64,000 bases of DNA. Origin: an uncultured Bacteroidales bacterium (GTDB lineage Bacteria; Bacteroidota; Bacteroidia; Bacteroidales; Bacteroidaceae). The notes beneath the pieces are model-generated. The model made no database searches and was not told where the DNA came from. It worked only from the letters and a program-made list of their open reading frames with translations. The stretch is from NCBI GenBank assembly GCA_902799685.1, contig CADCBO010000002.1, positions 62,001-126,000 on the forward strand, written 5' to 3'. The translations under genes and the position numbers were made by a program. Below are positions 3,761 through 47,450 of the stretch, in pieces; the first letter of the stretch is position 1, and each line of letters opens with the position of its first letter.

Positions 3761-4107
3761 GGGCACAAAGGGGACGGTTCTTGGACAAGCCAAGCGGCAA
3801 AGCCGAGCGCTTTTTGTGCCCCTTTTTTTCCAAGAGAACTTTTAGGGTATCAGTATCTGAAACTACGGGCCTTGCGGCCCTATCCCTCCCACATCCCAAC
3901 AAGTCACCCCGAAAGATATGAACAAGTTCCTATCTTCCGGGGCGTCTTATTGTGCTGCGGGCCCCTCCCTCTAACACGCCGAGGGTGGCGATGGTTTCCG
4001 ATACTGATACCCCAAAAGTTCTGTGCATCTTGGAATATTATCAAGGGGCACAAAAAGCGCTCGGCTTTGCCGCTTGGCTTGTCCAAGAACCGTCCCCTTT
4101 GTGCCCC
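3761..4107. repeat. 350-bp palindromic MITE-like element (family A ends)
   Basis: The gap 3755-4208 is filled mainly by one long imperfect palindrome. Its ends are inverted family A copies (3761-3822 and 4045-4107), each itself a hairpin with GGGGCACAAA arms. Inside, 3830-3863 (CCAAGAGAACTTTTAGGGTA onward) is matched in reverse by 3993-4033. A further short inverted pair, CCCCGAAAGATA / TATCTTCCGGGG, sits near the centre. No gene is seen inside. The inner segment CGGGCCCCTCCCTCT...GCCGAGGGTGGC recurs in the element inside rfbB. Confidence 0.8.
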
Positions 4108-9207: not shown

Positions 9208-9302
9208 GGGGCACAAAGGGGACGGTTCTTTTTGTGCCCCTGTGTTTTGCATCTTCAACAGCGATAATTAGGGGCACAAAAAGAACCGTCCCTTTTGTGC
9301 CC
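9208..9302. repeat. Family A palindromic repeat pair
   Basis: Near-copy of 7581-7675, with matching spacer TGTGTTTTGCATCTTC...GATAATTA. It lies between the divergently placed pgeF start and the 3' end of the RAYT gene. Confidence 0.85.
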
Positions 9303-9315
9303 TTTGTGCTGCACC

Positions 9316-10116
9316 TCACTCGCTGTCCTGAGCAAGTCGAATTGCTTTGACACTTAGACCCGTTAGTCGTGATATCTGTCTGATACTGGCTCCGAATTCT
9401 AAAATCTGTCGAATTAATTCCCTTCTTTCATTCAACTTAAATTTTTGAATGGCTTCTAAATAATCAGGTCCACAAAGTGAAATAATAAAATTAAGCACCA
9501 TATCATCATCAATACGGGTATTTGCATTGTTTATTTCAAGGATTTTCTGCGCTTTGGGTAAAGGATCGGCAACAAGAGCCTTCAGTTCATCAATCGGTAG
9601 TTTAGTAAGAACCGATTGAGTTGCACAAACGGGTATGGAACATCCTTTTGGATTTACGTATTCACGCCAGCTACTCCATGTGTAATCGTTAACGTCCGAT
9701 ACCAAATTAGCAGCCACAGGGTTCTGATGGATGTATCGGAGCAATGTTACAAAATACTCCCAGTCATTAACCGGTTCACTTTTGAACCTGTCCTGAAAAA
9801 AGTGACCTATCCTTTCATATTTCTTGTTGTAATAATGTGCATATGGAATTGCCAGGCTTTTAATTAATTCTGCCAAGCTTCCATCATAATCCTTAATCAG
9901 CAAGTGTACATGATTCGGCATGAGACAATAGGCGTATAAGCAACAATGGGGAGGAACTGGACGATCGGTTTCATCAAGAGGATGACACATATGATTCATC
10001 AGTTTGATAAACTTCCAATAATCGTCTTTACACTCAAAAATGTCCTGCTTGTTTATACCTCTGAGCATAACATGGTATAAACCTGACTGACTGGTAATTC
10101 TAGATTGCCTAGGCAT
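9316..10116 (-). CDS. REP-associated tyrosine transposase (RAYT, Y1-type HUH nuclease)
   Basis: The protein has 266 residues. It has the Y1-transposase fold: MPRQSRITSQSGLYHVMLRG at the start, the HUH metal motif MPNHVHLLI, and the nucleophile Tyr region RYIHQNPVAANL. The C-terminal 90 residues hold a helix-turn-helix-like stretch (ASIRQISRLTGLSVKAIR). RAYTs are single-copy relatives of IS200/IS605 TnpA that bind and cleave palindromic REP sequences. The gene lies between family A palindrome pairs at 9208-9302 and 10171-10293, which are its likely substrates. The ATG at 10116 matches the family start. Confidence 0.9.
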   Translation of the reverse strand: MPRQSRITSQSGLYHVMLRGINKQDIFECKDDYWKFIKLMNHMCHPLDETDRPVPPHCCLYAYCLMPNHVHLLIKDYDGSLAELIKSLAIPYAHYYNKKYERIGHFFQDRFKSEPVNDWEYFVTLLRYIHQNPVAANLVSDVNDYTWSSWREYVNPKGCSIPVCATQSVLTKLPIDELKALVADPLPKAQKILEINNANTRIDDDMVLNFIISLCGPDYLEAIQKFKLNERRELIRQILEFGASIRQISRLTGLSVKAIRLAQDSE

Positions 10117-10170
10117 AAGATTATATCTGTTTTTCAAATTCGATTCGCAAGTTACAAAAAATGCACACAA

Positions 10171-10293
10171 GAGCATAAAGGGGAAGGTTCTTTTTGTGCC
10201 CTAGACACATGCGGAACCACCTCTAATTTAAGCTTAACGTTTAAATTACCGATAAAAGGAGGGGCACAAAAAGAACCGTCCCCTTTGTGCCCC
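10171..10293. repeat. Family A inverted pair around the RAYT/recA gap
   Basis: A half element at 10171-10201 (AAAGGGGAAGGTTCTTTTTG) and an inverted half at 10260-10293 are about 58 bp apart. They are upstream of the RAYT gene and just past the recA stop. Confidence 0.75.
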
Positions 10294-10303
10294 TGTGCCC
10301 CTT

Positions 10304-11383
10304 TTAATCGTTCATCATTTCGGAGTCTTCCTCGGGCTCGGGAGCCTGCGGATTGCCAAGAATGGCAGCCATAATCTTCTGCTCCAGCTCATCGGCAAGC
10401 TCAGGATTGTCCTGCATCACCTGCTTGGCGGCATCGCGGCCCTGTGCCAGGCGTGTATCGCCGTAGCTGAACCAAGATCCGCTCTTCTTGATGATGCCGT
10501 ACTCCACGCCCAGGTCAACAATCTCGCCCGATTTGGAGATGCCCTCACCGAACATGATATCGAACTCTGCCTTGCGGAAAGGAGGCGCCACCTTGTTCTT
10601 TACCACCTTGACGCGAACCTGGTTGCCCACCACCTCATCACCGTCCTTAAGTGATGTCACGCGGCGAATATCAAGACGTACCGATGCGTAGAACTTGAGC
10701 GCGTTACCGCCTGTGGTAGTCTCGGGATTACCGAACATGACGCCAATCTTTTCACGTAACTGGTTGATAAAGATGCAGGTAGTATTGGTCTTGTTGATGG
10801 TCGATGTGAGCTTGCGCAGGGCCTGGCTCATGAGTCGAGCCTGCAGACCAACCTTGTTGTCACCCATATCGCCCTCTATCTCGGCCTTGGGTGTAAGTGC
10901 TGCCACGCTGTCAATCACGATGATGTCGATGGCACTGGAGCGGATAAGCTGCTCGGCAATCTCCAGGGCCTGTTCGCCGTTATCGGGCTGCGAAATCCAC
11001 AGGTTGTCAATGTCCACGCCAAGTTTTGAAGCGTAGAAACGGTCAAACGCATGCTCTGCATCGATGAACGCAGCAATGCCGCCGGCTTTCTGGGCCTCGG
11101 CAATGGCATGAATGGCAAGCGTTGTCTTACCGGATGATTCGGGACCGTAAATCTCAATTATCCTGCCACGCGGATAACCGCCCACGCCAAGAGCGGCGTT
11201 AAGGCCTATTGAACCGGTAGAGATGACATCAACATTCTCAATGCTCTCATCACCAAGTTTCATGATTGAGCCCTTACCAAAGCTCTTCTCAATCTTGTCA
11301 GTTGCTGCCTGCAAAGCCTTGAGTTTCTCACTCAAGCCCGCATTCTGAAGGCCTGACGCACCTTCAATCTCTTTTTTTGCCAT
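10304..11383 (-). CDS. recA: Recombinase RecA
   Basis: The protein has 359 residues. Walker [10 protein letters not shown], the FIDAEHAFD segment, Walker B region [11 protein letters not shown], the L2 loop [22 protein letters not shown] and the C-terminal acidic tail (PEPEEDSE) are all present. RecA forms filaments on single-stranded DNA for recombination and SOS induction. The N-terminus is a little longer than in E. coli, as is usual in Bacteroidota. It is monocistronic, convergent-side flanked by the RAYT, with a divergent tex gene upstream. Confidence 0.97.
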
Positions 11384-30999: not shown

Positions 31000-32313
31000 A
31001 TGAGCAGAACTATCATCATTACCGGCGGCGCCGGTTTTATTGGCAGTCATGTGGTACGGCTGTTTGTGAACAAGTATCCTGAGTATAAGATAATTAACCT
31101 TGATAAGCTTACTTATGCGGGCAACCTGGATAACCTGCGGGATATTGAGGACAAGCCTAACTATAAGTTTGTCAAGATGGATATTTGTGACTTTAACGGG
31201 GTGCTGGAGCTTCTTAAGGCCGAGCATGTGGATGGGATAATTCATTTGGCGGCTGAGAGCCATGTGGACAGGTCTATTAAGGATCCGTTTACTTTTGCTC
31301 AGACTAATGTGATGGGTACTCTGAGTCTGCTGCAGGCAGCAAAAACTTATTGGGAACCTTTTGGGTGGGTTTTGCCCGGGGATGTAATTTCAGAGGAGGC
31401 AGTACCTCCGATGACCCCCGTCGCTGACGCTCCGGTCCCTCCCACCGCCTGTGGCGGCGGGCCCCTCCCTCTTATGAGGCCGAGGGTGGCACAGGTCCCT
31501 GGAGGTACTACCTCCTCTGAAACAACATCCCCTGCCGAAGTGCAGACGGGAATTCCTTGCAGATTCTATCATATTTCTACTGATGAAGTATATGGGGCTT
31601 TGCAGATGACTCATCCTGAAGGGATTGAGCCTCCTTTCACGACCAAGGCATCCAGTGGTAAGCACCACCTTGCTTATGGTACCAAGTTCTTTACTGAGGA
31701 TTTGAAGTATCAGCCGCATAGTCCTTACAGTGCTTCTAAGGCTAGCAGTGACCATTTTGTACGTGCGTTCCATGATACTTACGGCATGCCTACCATAGTG
31801 ACCAACTGCTCAAACAACTACGGTCCGTATCAGTTCCCGGAGAAGCTGATTCCGCTGTTTATCAATAACATCCGTCATCGCAAGCCTCTGCCGGTTTATG
31901 GCAAGGGTGAGAATGTCCGTGACTGGCTTTATGTGGTGGATCATGCACGGGCTATCGATGTCATATTCCATCAGGGCAAGATTGCCGAGACCTACAATAT
32001 AGGTGGGTTTAATGAGTGGAAAAATATTGACATTATCAAGGTTCTGATCAATACGGTTGACCGCCTGCTGGGACGTAAGGAGGGTGAGGATATGGACCTT
32101 ATCACTTATGTTACTGACAGGGCCGGACATGACTTGCGCTATGCCATTGACAGCACTAAGCTTCAGCGGGAGCTGGGGTGGGAGCCTTCACTTCAGTTTG
32201 AGGAGGGCATCGAGAAGACGGTGCGGTGGTACTTGGAGAATCAAGCATGGGTTGACAATGTAACCAGCGGCGAGTATCAGAATTATTACGATTCAATGTA
32301 CAAGAACAGATGA
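31000..32313 (+). CDS. rfbB: dTDP-glucose 4,6-dehydratase with in-frame palindromic insertion
   Basis: The 437-residue protein is the second enzyme of dTDP-L-rhamnose synthesis. The NAD motif TGGAGFIGSHVV, HLAAESHVDRSI, the catalytic STDEVYG and YSASKASSDHFVRA are intact. About 60 extra residues are inserted between LLQAAKTYWE and CRFYHISTDEVYG; they are Pro/Thr/Ala-rich and derive from a 155-bp element with 32-bp inverted ends (31378-31532). The reading frame remains open across it. The ATG at 31000 is used since the fold starts there. The other rfb genes follow after upxY. Confidence 0.92.
   Translation: MSRTIIITGGAGFIGSHVVRLFVNKYPEYKIINLDKLTYAGNLDNLRDIEDKPNYKFVKMDICDFNGVLELLKAEHVDGIIHLAAESHVDRSIKDPFTFAQTNVMGTLSLLQAAKTYWEPFGWVLPGDVISEEAVPPMTPVADAPVPPTACGGGPLPLMRPRVAQVPGGTTSSETTSPAEVQTGIPCRFYHISTDEVYGALQMTHPEGIEPPFTTKASSGKHHLAYGTKFFTEDLKYQPHSPYSASKASSDHFVRAFHDTYGMPTIVTNCSNNYGPYQFPEKLIPLFINNIRHRKPLPVYGKGENVRDWLYVVDHARAIDVIFHQGKIAETYNIGGFNEWKNIDIIKVLINTVDRLLGRKEGEDMDLITYVTDRAGHDLRYAIDSTKLQRELGWEPSLQFEEGIEKTVRWYLENQAWVDNVTSGEYQNYYDSMYKNR
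31378..31532. repeat. 155-bp inverted-repeat element inside rfbB
   Basis: Left end GGGGATGTAATTTCAGAGGA and right end are inverted over 32 bp with 3 mismatches (31378-31409 against 31501-31532). The core CGGGCCCCTCCCTCTTATGA...GCCGAGGGTGGC is shared with the long element near 3959-3989. It lies entirely within coding sequence and leaves the frame open. Confidence 0.88.
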
Positions 32314-46179: not shown

Positions 46180-46226
46180 CAGGTCCCGATGACTTGGATG
46201 GAGTGCCAAGAAGACTTGATAACAAT

Positions 46227-46292
46227 AAAGGCCCGATAAGCGGTTCCGATAAGCGAGCAAACGGTAGCGTCGCCAGCCGCAGCGAGGCCCCC
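46227..46292. repeat. Repeat C (GGCCCGATAAGCGG type), copy 1
   Basis: AAAGGCCCGATAAGCGGTTC continuing with CGATAAGCGAGCAAACGGTA and GCGTCGCCAGCCGCAGCGAG; nearly identical to 55548-55614 and diverged at 54870-54940. Confidence 0.75.
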
Positions 46293-46325
46293 GGCCAAGC
46301 AAACAAAAAGGAAAAACGGAAAAAG

Positions 46326-47450
46326 ATGAAAACAATACTAGTTACCGGAAGCGCCGGTTTTATAGGAGCCAACCTGGTATTAAGGTTGCTGGATAGCCAG
46401 GAGCCAACCAAAATAGTAGGCCTGGACAACCTAAACAACTATTACGATCCCAGCCTAAAGGAATACCGACTGAAAGTAATAGACGAGAAGGCGAAGGCAC
46501 ACCTGGAGCATAGCTATAGCTTTATTAAAGGCAGTATTGCTGACCGCGAGCTCATTGACCGGCTGTTTGCGGAGTACAAGTTTGACATTGTGGTGAATCT
46601 GGCGGCGCAGGCTGGTGTGCGGTATAGCATTGAGAATCCGGATGTTTATATAGAGAGTAACATTATTGGATTCTATAATATACTGGAGGCTTGTAGGCAT
46701 TCTATGGATGGAGTGGGGCTAGATGGCAAAATAGGGCCAAACGGAACCGTCCCCAATGGCACTATTTATCAGGGGGTGCAGCATTTGGTGTATGCTAGTA
46801 GTAGCAGCGTGTATGGCGGAAATAAGAAAGTGCCGTTCAGTACGGATGATCGGGTGGATAATCCTGTGAGTCTTTATGCTGCTACTAAGAAGAGTAATGA
46901 GTTGATGGCTCATTGCTATAGTAAGCTATACAATATACCTTCTACTGGCTTAAGGTTCTTTACGGTATATGGGCCGGCCGGTCGTCCTGATATGGCGTAC
47001 TTTGGGTTTACCAATAAGTTGCTTAAGGGAGAGACCATACAGATATACAATTACGGCAACTGTCGCCGCGACTTCACCTACGTGGATGACATTGTGGAGG
47101 GAATTGTGAGGGTGATGGCTAAGGCACCGGAAAAGAAGACGGGCGAAGATGGTCTGCCGATTCCGCCGTATGCGGTATATAACATCGGAGGTGGCCAGCC
47201 TGAGAACCTGCTGGACTTTGTGAACATCCTGCAAGAGGAGTTGGTGCGTGCAGGGGTGTTGCCGCAGGATTATGACTTTGAGGCGCATAAGAAGCTTGTT
47301 CCTATGCAGCCGGGCGATGTTCCCACTACTTATGCCGATGCTACCGCACTGGAGCGTGACTTTGGGTTTACGCCTAAGATTACCCTTCGCGAGGGATTGC
47401 GGCACTTTGCCGAGTGGTACAAGGAATATGGTCAAAAGATAGCAAAATAG
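46326..47450 (+). CDS. UDP-glucuronate 4-epimerase-type NAD-dependent epimerase, with in-frame family A insertion
   Basis: The 374-residue short-chain epimerase has VTGSAGFIGANLVLRLL, NLAAQAGVRYSIENPDVYI, the catalytic YASSSSVYGGNKKVPFS and YAATKKSNELMAH. FFTVYGPAGRPDMAYFGFT and the RRDFTYVDDIVEGIVR segment are as in CapI-like UDP-glucuronate epimerases. About 18 residues (GKIGPNGTVPNGTIYQG) before QHLVYASSSS come from a family A' palindrome. The ATG at 46326 is used; the longer ORF reads through repeat C. The TAG stop is the first part of a family B element. Confidence 0.88.
   Translation: MKTILVTGSAGFIGANLVLRLLDSQEPTKIVGLDNLNNYYDPSLKEYRLKVIDEKAKAHLEHSYSFIKGSIADRELIDRLFAEYKFDIVVNLAAQAGVRYSIENPDVYIESNIIGFYNILEACRHSMDGVGLDGKIGPNGTVPNGTIYQGVQHLVYASSSSVYGGNKKVPFSTDDRVDNPVSLYAATKKSNELMAHCYSKLYNIPSTGLRFFTVYGPAGRPDMAYFGFTNKLLKGETIQIYNYGNCRRDFTYVDDIVEGIVRVMAKAPEKKTGEDGLPIPPYAVYNIGGGQPENLLDFVNILQEELVRAGVLPQDYDFEAHKKLVPMQPGDVPTTYADATALERDFGFTPKITLREGLRHFAEWYKEYGQKIAK
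46727..46772. repeat. Family A' palindrome inside the epimerase gene
   Basis: AAATAGGGCCAAACGGAACC continuing with GTCCCCAATGGCACTATTT forms a palindrome (AAATAG-GCCA against TGGC-CTATTT). It is almost identical to 47489-47527, downstream of the same gene, but here is read in frame. Confidence 0.82.

Follow-up and report, generated by a model that had tools for sequence, protein, structure and literature searches.

A genus-level palindromic element, probably inserted in frame into rfbB of an uncultured Bacteroidales bacterium

We analysed a 64,000-nucleotide stretch of DNA (the window) from an uncultured Bacteroidales bacterium whose genome is a draft assembly of 37 contigs, 85.8% complete. 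The database records of its relatives suggest that it lives in the ruminant gut. Near the middle of the window lies rfbB, encoding a dTDP-glucose 4,6-dehydratase (RfbB) with a long palindrome inside its reading frame. The window also holds an intergenic copy of the same kind of element, a Y1 transposase gene bracketed by short REP hairpins and an epimerase gene with a REP of its own (Table 1).

Table 1. Coordinates of the features discussed, numbered from the first nucleotide of the window
Feature	Position	Strand	Evidence or remark
rfbB (dTDP-glucose 4,6-dehydratase), 437 aa, insert-bearing	31000..32313	+	TIGR01181; Pfam GDP_Man_Dehyd matched as two stretches
Palindromic element, 155 nt, probably inserted, in-frame, residues 127-178 of the 437-aa RfbB	31378..31532	+	Arms, covariance model, absence in relatives
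5' arm of the palindrome, 32 nt	31378..31409	+	
3' arm of the palindrome, 32 nt	31501..31532	+	
Conserved core GGGCCCCTCCC of the element family, rfbB copy	31459..31469	+	Genome pattern count
Intergenic copy of the rfbB-element family	3835..4022	+	Covariance model, 121.3 bits
REP motif GGGACGGTTC beside the intergenic copy	3771..3780	+	Partner 4087-4096 on minus strand
Y1 transposase, REP-associated tyrosine transposase-like; candidate REP mover	9316..10176	-	PF01797
REP pair, one side of the transposase gene	9209..9302	.	33-nt arms, 97% complementary
REP pair, other side of the transposase gene	10158..10305	.	44-nt arms, 84% complementary
SDR (NAD-dependent) epimerase gene holding an in-frame REP	46194..47450	+	Pfam Epimerase 7.5e-53; likely start ATG 46326 (by eye, MKTILVTG motif)
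REP-type palindrome, 39 nt, in-frame, in the loop preceding SSSSVYG, which corresponds to the rfbB loop	46729..46767	+	11-nt arms, 91% complementary

A palindrome in the rfbB reading frame

The first-pass annotation of this DNA had placed inside rfbB a 155-bp palindrome whose 32-bp arms match at 29 of 32 positions, and this description was borne out in both position and pairing (90.6%, falling to 80% when the arms are stretched to 46 nt). Across the 231-nt loop region of the gene, the best inverted repeat scored 23, whereas none of 100 dinucleotide shuffles gave more than 12. The reading frame runs uninterrupted across the palindrome, and the insert-bearing product passes the TIGR01181 equivalog model (443 bits; cut-off 365). 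The accompanying estimate of an open frame with about 52–60 added residues before STDEVYG also holds: the RfbB loop measures 73 residues, 59 more than the 14 residues seen in 70 of 99 compared proteins and 47 more than the 26 residues of the sister sequence in genome G027. A 4-nt direct repeat (TGCC, at 31373–31376 and 31533–31536) brackets the element and is too short for a claim of target duplication.

Aligning rfbB of relatives, as the annotation had proposed, located the element in none of the loops of 18 near relatives found in the genus by protein search. Twelve of these have a 14-residue loop (for example, ESLPEKFEGKRFYH), those of G033 and G009 have 11 residues, and G027, G030, G019 and G006 have long loops of other sequence. 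Five more distant homologues (L050–L054, one with masked bases) are also without the element, as is a second rfbB of the same genome (L061, G000:C2:144889-146016), which has an ordinary, insert-free loop of 14 residues. A wider set of 80 loci from named genome contigs gave 79 readable loops, none of which contains the element's translation; the covariance model described below, run on 20 of those 80 loci, detected one element, in L263 and outside rfbB. Among the rfbB genes compared, the element is present only in this genome. Its absence from the loops of near and wider relatives identifies it as an insertion, and we discarded the idea of an old feature of the RfbB family. Downstream of the insert, the rest of the gene is 86–96% identical to the 18 near relatives.

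Loop length varies well beyond this one case. In an RfbB tree computed without the loop (99 of 100 tried proteins kept; bootstrap not fully settled), the protein of this genome pairs with that of G027, and loops of at least 18 residues occupy 22 of the 99 rows, with at least 7 changes on well-supported branches and 15 by a simple count. A fold model of RfbB built from 38 sequences, of moderate quality (mean pLDDT 65, pTM 0.65, with low stretches elsewhere too), gives residues 129–181, almost the span of the insert, a pLDDT below 50 and sets them between a helix (96–121) and a strand (188–192). In 8du1, the best-matching relative of known structure, the flanking matches are separated by 18 residues, compared with 69 in this RfbB. 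The insertion site is thereby shown, in the model, as a predicted loop between a helix and the β strand bearing STDEVYG. Outside the loop, dN/dS between this rfbB and its relatives was 0.013–0.053 in five comparisons (the other three of eight were saturated), low values that mostly reflect the time before the insertion.

A dispersed family in one genus and its REP neighbours

When the rfbB element was used as a DNA query against its own genome, 35 matches were obtained at E ≤ 10, counting itself and its own two arms, and most of them fell in query positions 66–120, the core of the element. The core sequence GGGCCCCTCCC has 33 copies in this genome; a reversed control pattern has 0. A covariance model, made from an alignment of 17 other copies of this genome with the rfbB copy left out, recovered the rfbB copy at 31387–31523 (67.8 bits, E 2e-13). 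The same model matched the intergenic copy, confirming an earlier claim that the feature at 3761–4107 contains a similar core; that feature is a family copy nested between two REP hairpins. In a genus survey the model found matches in 33 of 37 genomes at E ≤ 0.01, adding up to roughly 370; this figure counts some palindromes twice, once on each strand, and rests on scoring no more than 91 candidates in each genome. A translated search was also run against 301 genomes sampled from the taxonomic family, of which at least 21 belong to this genus. Beyond the genus, no match had an E value below 0.005, and the weak ones at 0.005 and above were regarded as noise. The rfbB segment thus belongs to a dispersed palindromic family that is restricted, in these searches, to one genus. 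Rfam searches of the window and of 7 loci returned one chance-level match (E 0.99) and nothing else, and the element found no match in phage records.

Elements of the family measure 130–190 nt and have a multi-hairpin core. The loci that we studied are a non-random set of copies, drawn from searches that ranked matches by their resemblance to the rfbB copy, the translated coding copies or the model. Some copies (L016–L019, L022–L025, L029 and L030) are longer by about 50 nt or more and contain longer inner hairpins that recur among copies; these inner modules look as if they had been exchanged from one copy to another.

The REP motifs framing the intergenic copy sit in 67-nt arms that pair along their full length, and hairpins of the same GGGACGGTTC type bracket the Y1 gene of the window. 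The product of that gene passes PF01797 (Y1_Tnp; 40.5 bits, cut-off 23) and falls below the cut-off of NF047646, the NCBI model for REP-associated tyrosine transposases (55.2 bits, cut-off 80). The window contains 17 matches to the REP motif, against 0.05 expected; CGTC occurs within GAACCGTCCC, by eye at the hairpin loop position. REPs lie on both sides of the Y1 gene in 4 of the 8 loci examined out of 42 listed (the window, G026, G027 and G004, the last by coordinates), and no REP motif was found near the Y1 genes of the other 4 (L307, L308, L311 and L312).

REP motifs also lie near some copies of the larger element. Among 98 copies, only 13 have a motif within 120 nt on both sides, 6 on one side and 79 on neither, compared with 1 of 198 control windows placed 1 kb away. 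A Y1 transposase is present in 23 of the 37 genomes of the genus, with no association, by eye, between its presence and the number of elements: G007, G029 and G034 have 20, 28 and 21 element matches and no Y1 match, and G001 has two Y1 matches and no element. Y1-driven movement is plausible for the REPs; for the larger element, a Y1-driven origin is unproven.

Repeats in other genes and the matching of the arms

A search for coding copies, also proposed in the annotation, uncovered the element in frame in a CapF-like gene of two genomes (L072 in G023 and L078 in G021) and in cbiA of G034 (L141), with a remnant in G004. In the CapF-like gene, the element lies between the Epimerase and Polysacc_synt_C domains; the protein scores 325 bits with NF047837, below the cut-off of 500. 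Homologues at E ≤ 1e-20 occur in only 4 of 37 genomes, and those in G016 and G028 align only before and after the element stretch, the G028 gene having a TAG within its first match. The 504-aa CbiA of G034 carries the element in its interdomain linker, with REP sequences around it, and matches Pfam CbiA and GATase_3 each across nearly the whole profile. Among the 15 of 37 genomes in which cbiA was detected, G036 also has the element, its two gene parts lying in overlapping ORFs of different frames so that the reading frame is lost immediately ahead of the element, and G004 retains a shortened in-frame remnant (23 bits). Separately, the cbiA linker of the window's own genome (L202) reads by eye as a translated inverted REP pair (GDGSFC ... 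GTKRTVP), and four relatives (L203–L206) have the two CbiA domains in separate neighbouring ORFs, split at the linker.

Scanning 99 distinct copies, we found 4 (L001, L072, L078 and L141) enclosed by an ORF that extends 50 codons or more to either side; ORFs that run across an element close to the end of a gene were left out of this count. All four are read on one strand and in one frame. Of 91 non-coding copies, 35 are open in this frame, more than in any of the other five (23, 12, 25, 3 and 7); if frames were drawn with these weights, three independent genes would be expected to agree on any single frame about 1 time in 16. Because the coding frame is the one most often open in non-coding copies, the shared strand and frame are weak evidence, partly explained by survivorship. 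Arm ends of the form GGAGGTA/TACCTCC occur in the rfbB and CapF-like copies only, 3 of 105 matches.

Other repeats have entered comparable positions. The 39-mer of the epimerase REP recurs identically elsewhere in this genome (L022:1605). Ten stretches were taken for comparison, and the REP is in none of the five that contain the motif; the nearest homologues read RHNPVDH (G033) and RHNPVQH (G028) at the site, and G008 has its own, somewhat longer loop. The rfbB loops L230, L232, L239 and L229, searched against their own genomes with three of these loop segments joined into one query, gave 8, 7, 55 and 43 rows; excluding rows at the loop itself leaves 3, 6, 53 and 42, including many that are short or overlap. 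The L230 and L232 loops contain palindromes with 26-nt and 25-nt arms. L230:2345-2594 and L232:2345-2510 look like members of a second palindrome family: they share a core, differ in their self-matching arms and have a few other matches in those genomes.

Compared with 100 shuffles, 6 of 17 long rfbB loops beat all of them (L031, L227, L229, L230, L232 and L263); the palindromes of L227, L229 and L263 are weaker than those of L230 and L232 and still above every shuffle. The remaining 11, L239 and L033 included, did not exceed all shuffles, and a long loop is therefore not always palindromic. A 47-nt stretch of the G030 rfbB loop also occurs in the C-terminal portion of cbiA in both G034 and G036. 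In the Bacteroidales, the rfbB loop is a repeated landing site for other dispersed repeats.

We also compared the two arms of the element across its copies. Across 98 distinct copies, standard pairs make up 96.7% of the paired cells, and 1059 cells have two-sided changes where shuffles give 326. The alignment was fitted to the structure, which favours pairing, and related copies inflate the counts. Of the arm cells, 2437 of 2585 are Watson–Crick, 37 are G–T, 59 A–C and 52 other (one nearly invariant T–G pair was left out). With G–T no commoner than A–C and many compensated changes, the pattern points to constraint or copying at the DNA level rather than to RNA folding. Between L008 and either L149 or L070, whose flanks are 83–91% identical, 14 of 27 arm pairs have changed on both sides and 1 and 2, respectively, are broken. 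All copy pairs with similar flanks, which are not independent and some of which have only a short REP flank in common, together give 1328 unchanged arm pairs, 297 two-sided changes, 62 one-sided changes and 107 pairs broken in one copy. These 107 indicate that pairing is not always maintained, and some arm differences may reflect replacement by another copy, not stepwise change. Among coding copies, no arm pair has changed on both sides: L072 and L078 have 22 the same, 3 changed on one side and 3 broken, and L141 and L144 have 27 the same and 1 broken. At L007, L062, L063 and other loci, the element stands with similar flanks in several genomes, by eye before a gcvH-like gene, with arms changed on both sides; copies upstream of this gene may have a regulatory role.

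Origin of the rfbB insert and its relation to known repeats

We consider it very probable that a palindromic element dispersed in the genus inserted in frame into rfbB, whose reading frame now includes it. Movement of the element is what we infer from these comparisons. Under such a mechanism, mobile palindromic DNA would enter genes and persist if it preserved the frame and fell in a loop or linker that tolerates it, while selection would remove insertions that are out of frame, contain stops or fall in structured parts. RfbB would remain an active enzyme, with the insert as a putative unstructured passenger, as the fold model suggests. The Y1 transposase of the window, or its kin, would move the short REP hairpins, and some copies of the larger element, nested between REPs, may travel with them. 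In intergenic copies, hairpin recognition or arm-to-arm template switching could keep the arms matched at the DNA level.

Several other explanations bear on the same observations. The element might have a function of its own, as a structured RNA or in regulation, and some of its copies might then have fallen into genes; the strong conservation of its core and the intergenic copies with similar flanks in several genomes, such as L007, L062 and L063 by the gcvH-like gene, would fit this, but the empty Rfam searches of the window and 7 loci, the finding that G–T arm pairs are no commoner than A–C and the improbability of one regulation common to rfbB, CapF-like and cbiA contexts leave it unlikely. 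The existence of a second rfbB with an ordinary loop means that the decorated gene could be heading to inactivity, as a decaying duplicate disrupted by the element and covered by its insert-free paralogue, and the insert does precede the catalytic strand. We nevertheless judge disruption improbable: the frame is uninterrupted, the sequence beyond the insert is well conserved among the 18 near relatives, the protein exceeds the TIGR01181 cut-off, the CapF-like copy is common to two species and the cbiA copy survives as an in-frame remnant.

Two further readings concern the segment itself, and we give little credence to either. An old, length-variable RfbB loop could have turned GC-rich and palindromic through local duplication or slippage, with no dispersed element inserted. 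Loop length does vary in the lineage, and short tandem repeats are visible there by eye in G019, G006, L240 and L231, but the core matches the family both by the 33 genome copies of its core sequence and by a model made without the rfbB copy, and the loops of four relatives match other dispersed repeats of their own genomes. It is just as hard to believe that the segment is not translated as such, being spliced out, bypassed by the ribosome or removed after translation. The palindrome is long, and palindrome bypassing is cited for a yeast's mitochondria in a passage of PMC6649704, but the rfbB, CapF-like and G034 cbiA inserts leave the frame open gene-wide, which bypassing would not need.

The in-frame insertion into rfbB is one of several such cases and appears RPE-like in the way it works, so that the annotation's likening of it to the Rickettsia palindromic elements (RPEs) is apt as an analogy. 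In-frame palindromes are best known from Rickettsia, and their usual setting is one of reduced genomes and weak selection. RPEs, the elements of Ogata and coworkers, are described in passages of PMC3767692 and PMC6649704 as dispersed palindromes of 100–150 bp within ORFs whose frame stays intact. Here too, a dispersed in-frame palindromic family in one lineage sits inside conserved genes (rfbB, CapF-like and cbiA) and is absent from orthologues. Entry of different repeats into the rfbB loop likewise recalls the statement, in part of PMC3767692, that different RPE groups may occupy near sites of one gene. The likeness drawn here is one of description: RPEs belong to intracellular Alphaproteobacteria and the present family to Bacteroidota, and the many two-sided changes in its intergenic arms differ from Rickettsia repeats, which lose identity with time according to a passage of PMC6649704.

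Other repeat classes share some of these features. REPs are presented in part of PMC3733652 as short hairpins, often in inverted pairs and some within ORFs; the same text places Bacteroidetes among the phyla with CGTC repeats and, in that part, names none of them among the intragenic cases. The GGGACGGTTC hairpins bracketing a Y1 transposase gene resemble REP/BIME systems with their REP-associated tyrosine transposases, whereas the rfbB element is larger, has a multi-hairpin core and has no transposase tied to it. Like MITEs, its family is small, non-autonomous and dispersed, with inverted ends, yet these ends vary widely between copies and remain self-complementary; Porphyromonas gingivalis MITEs are handled as non-coding in the part of PMC5771137 that concerns them. 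Translated palindromes within genes are also reported from Nematomorpha mitochondria (in a passage of PMC6649704), but those are perfect mitochondrial repeats, in contrast to the dispersed bacterial family described here. By title or abstract opening, the openly licensed literature yielded no report of in-frame palindromic elements in Bacteroidota.

A bolder proposition, which we put forward only tentatively and regard as rather doubtful, is that this Bacteroidales lineage repeatedly builds loops from mobile palindromes, with unrelated repeat families entering the same sugar-nucleotide enzyme loop and CbiA linkers, and with the GGAGGTA/TACCTCC subfamily as a coding specialist, open in one frame and kept as protein rather than as a DNA palindrome. 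Several families in Bacteroidales, together with insert-free sister versions and a decaying remnant, would show a more general route to new protein segments. With its several entries by different repeats, the rfbB loop would serve as a natural experiment on insertion-tolerant protein positions, and the two-sided arm changes at sites common to several species would allow a direct test of how palindromes stay palindromic.
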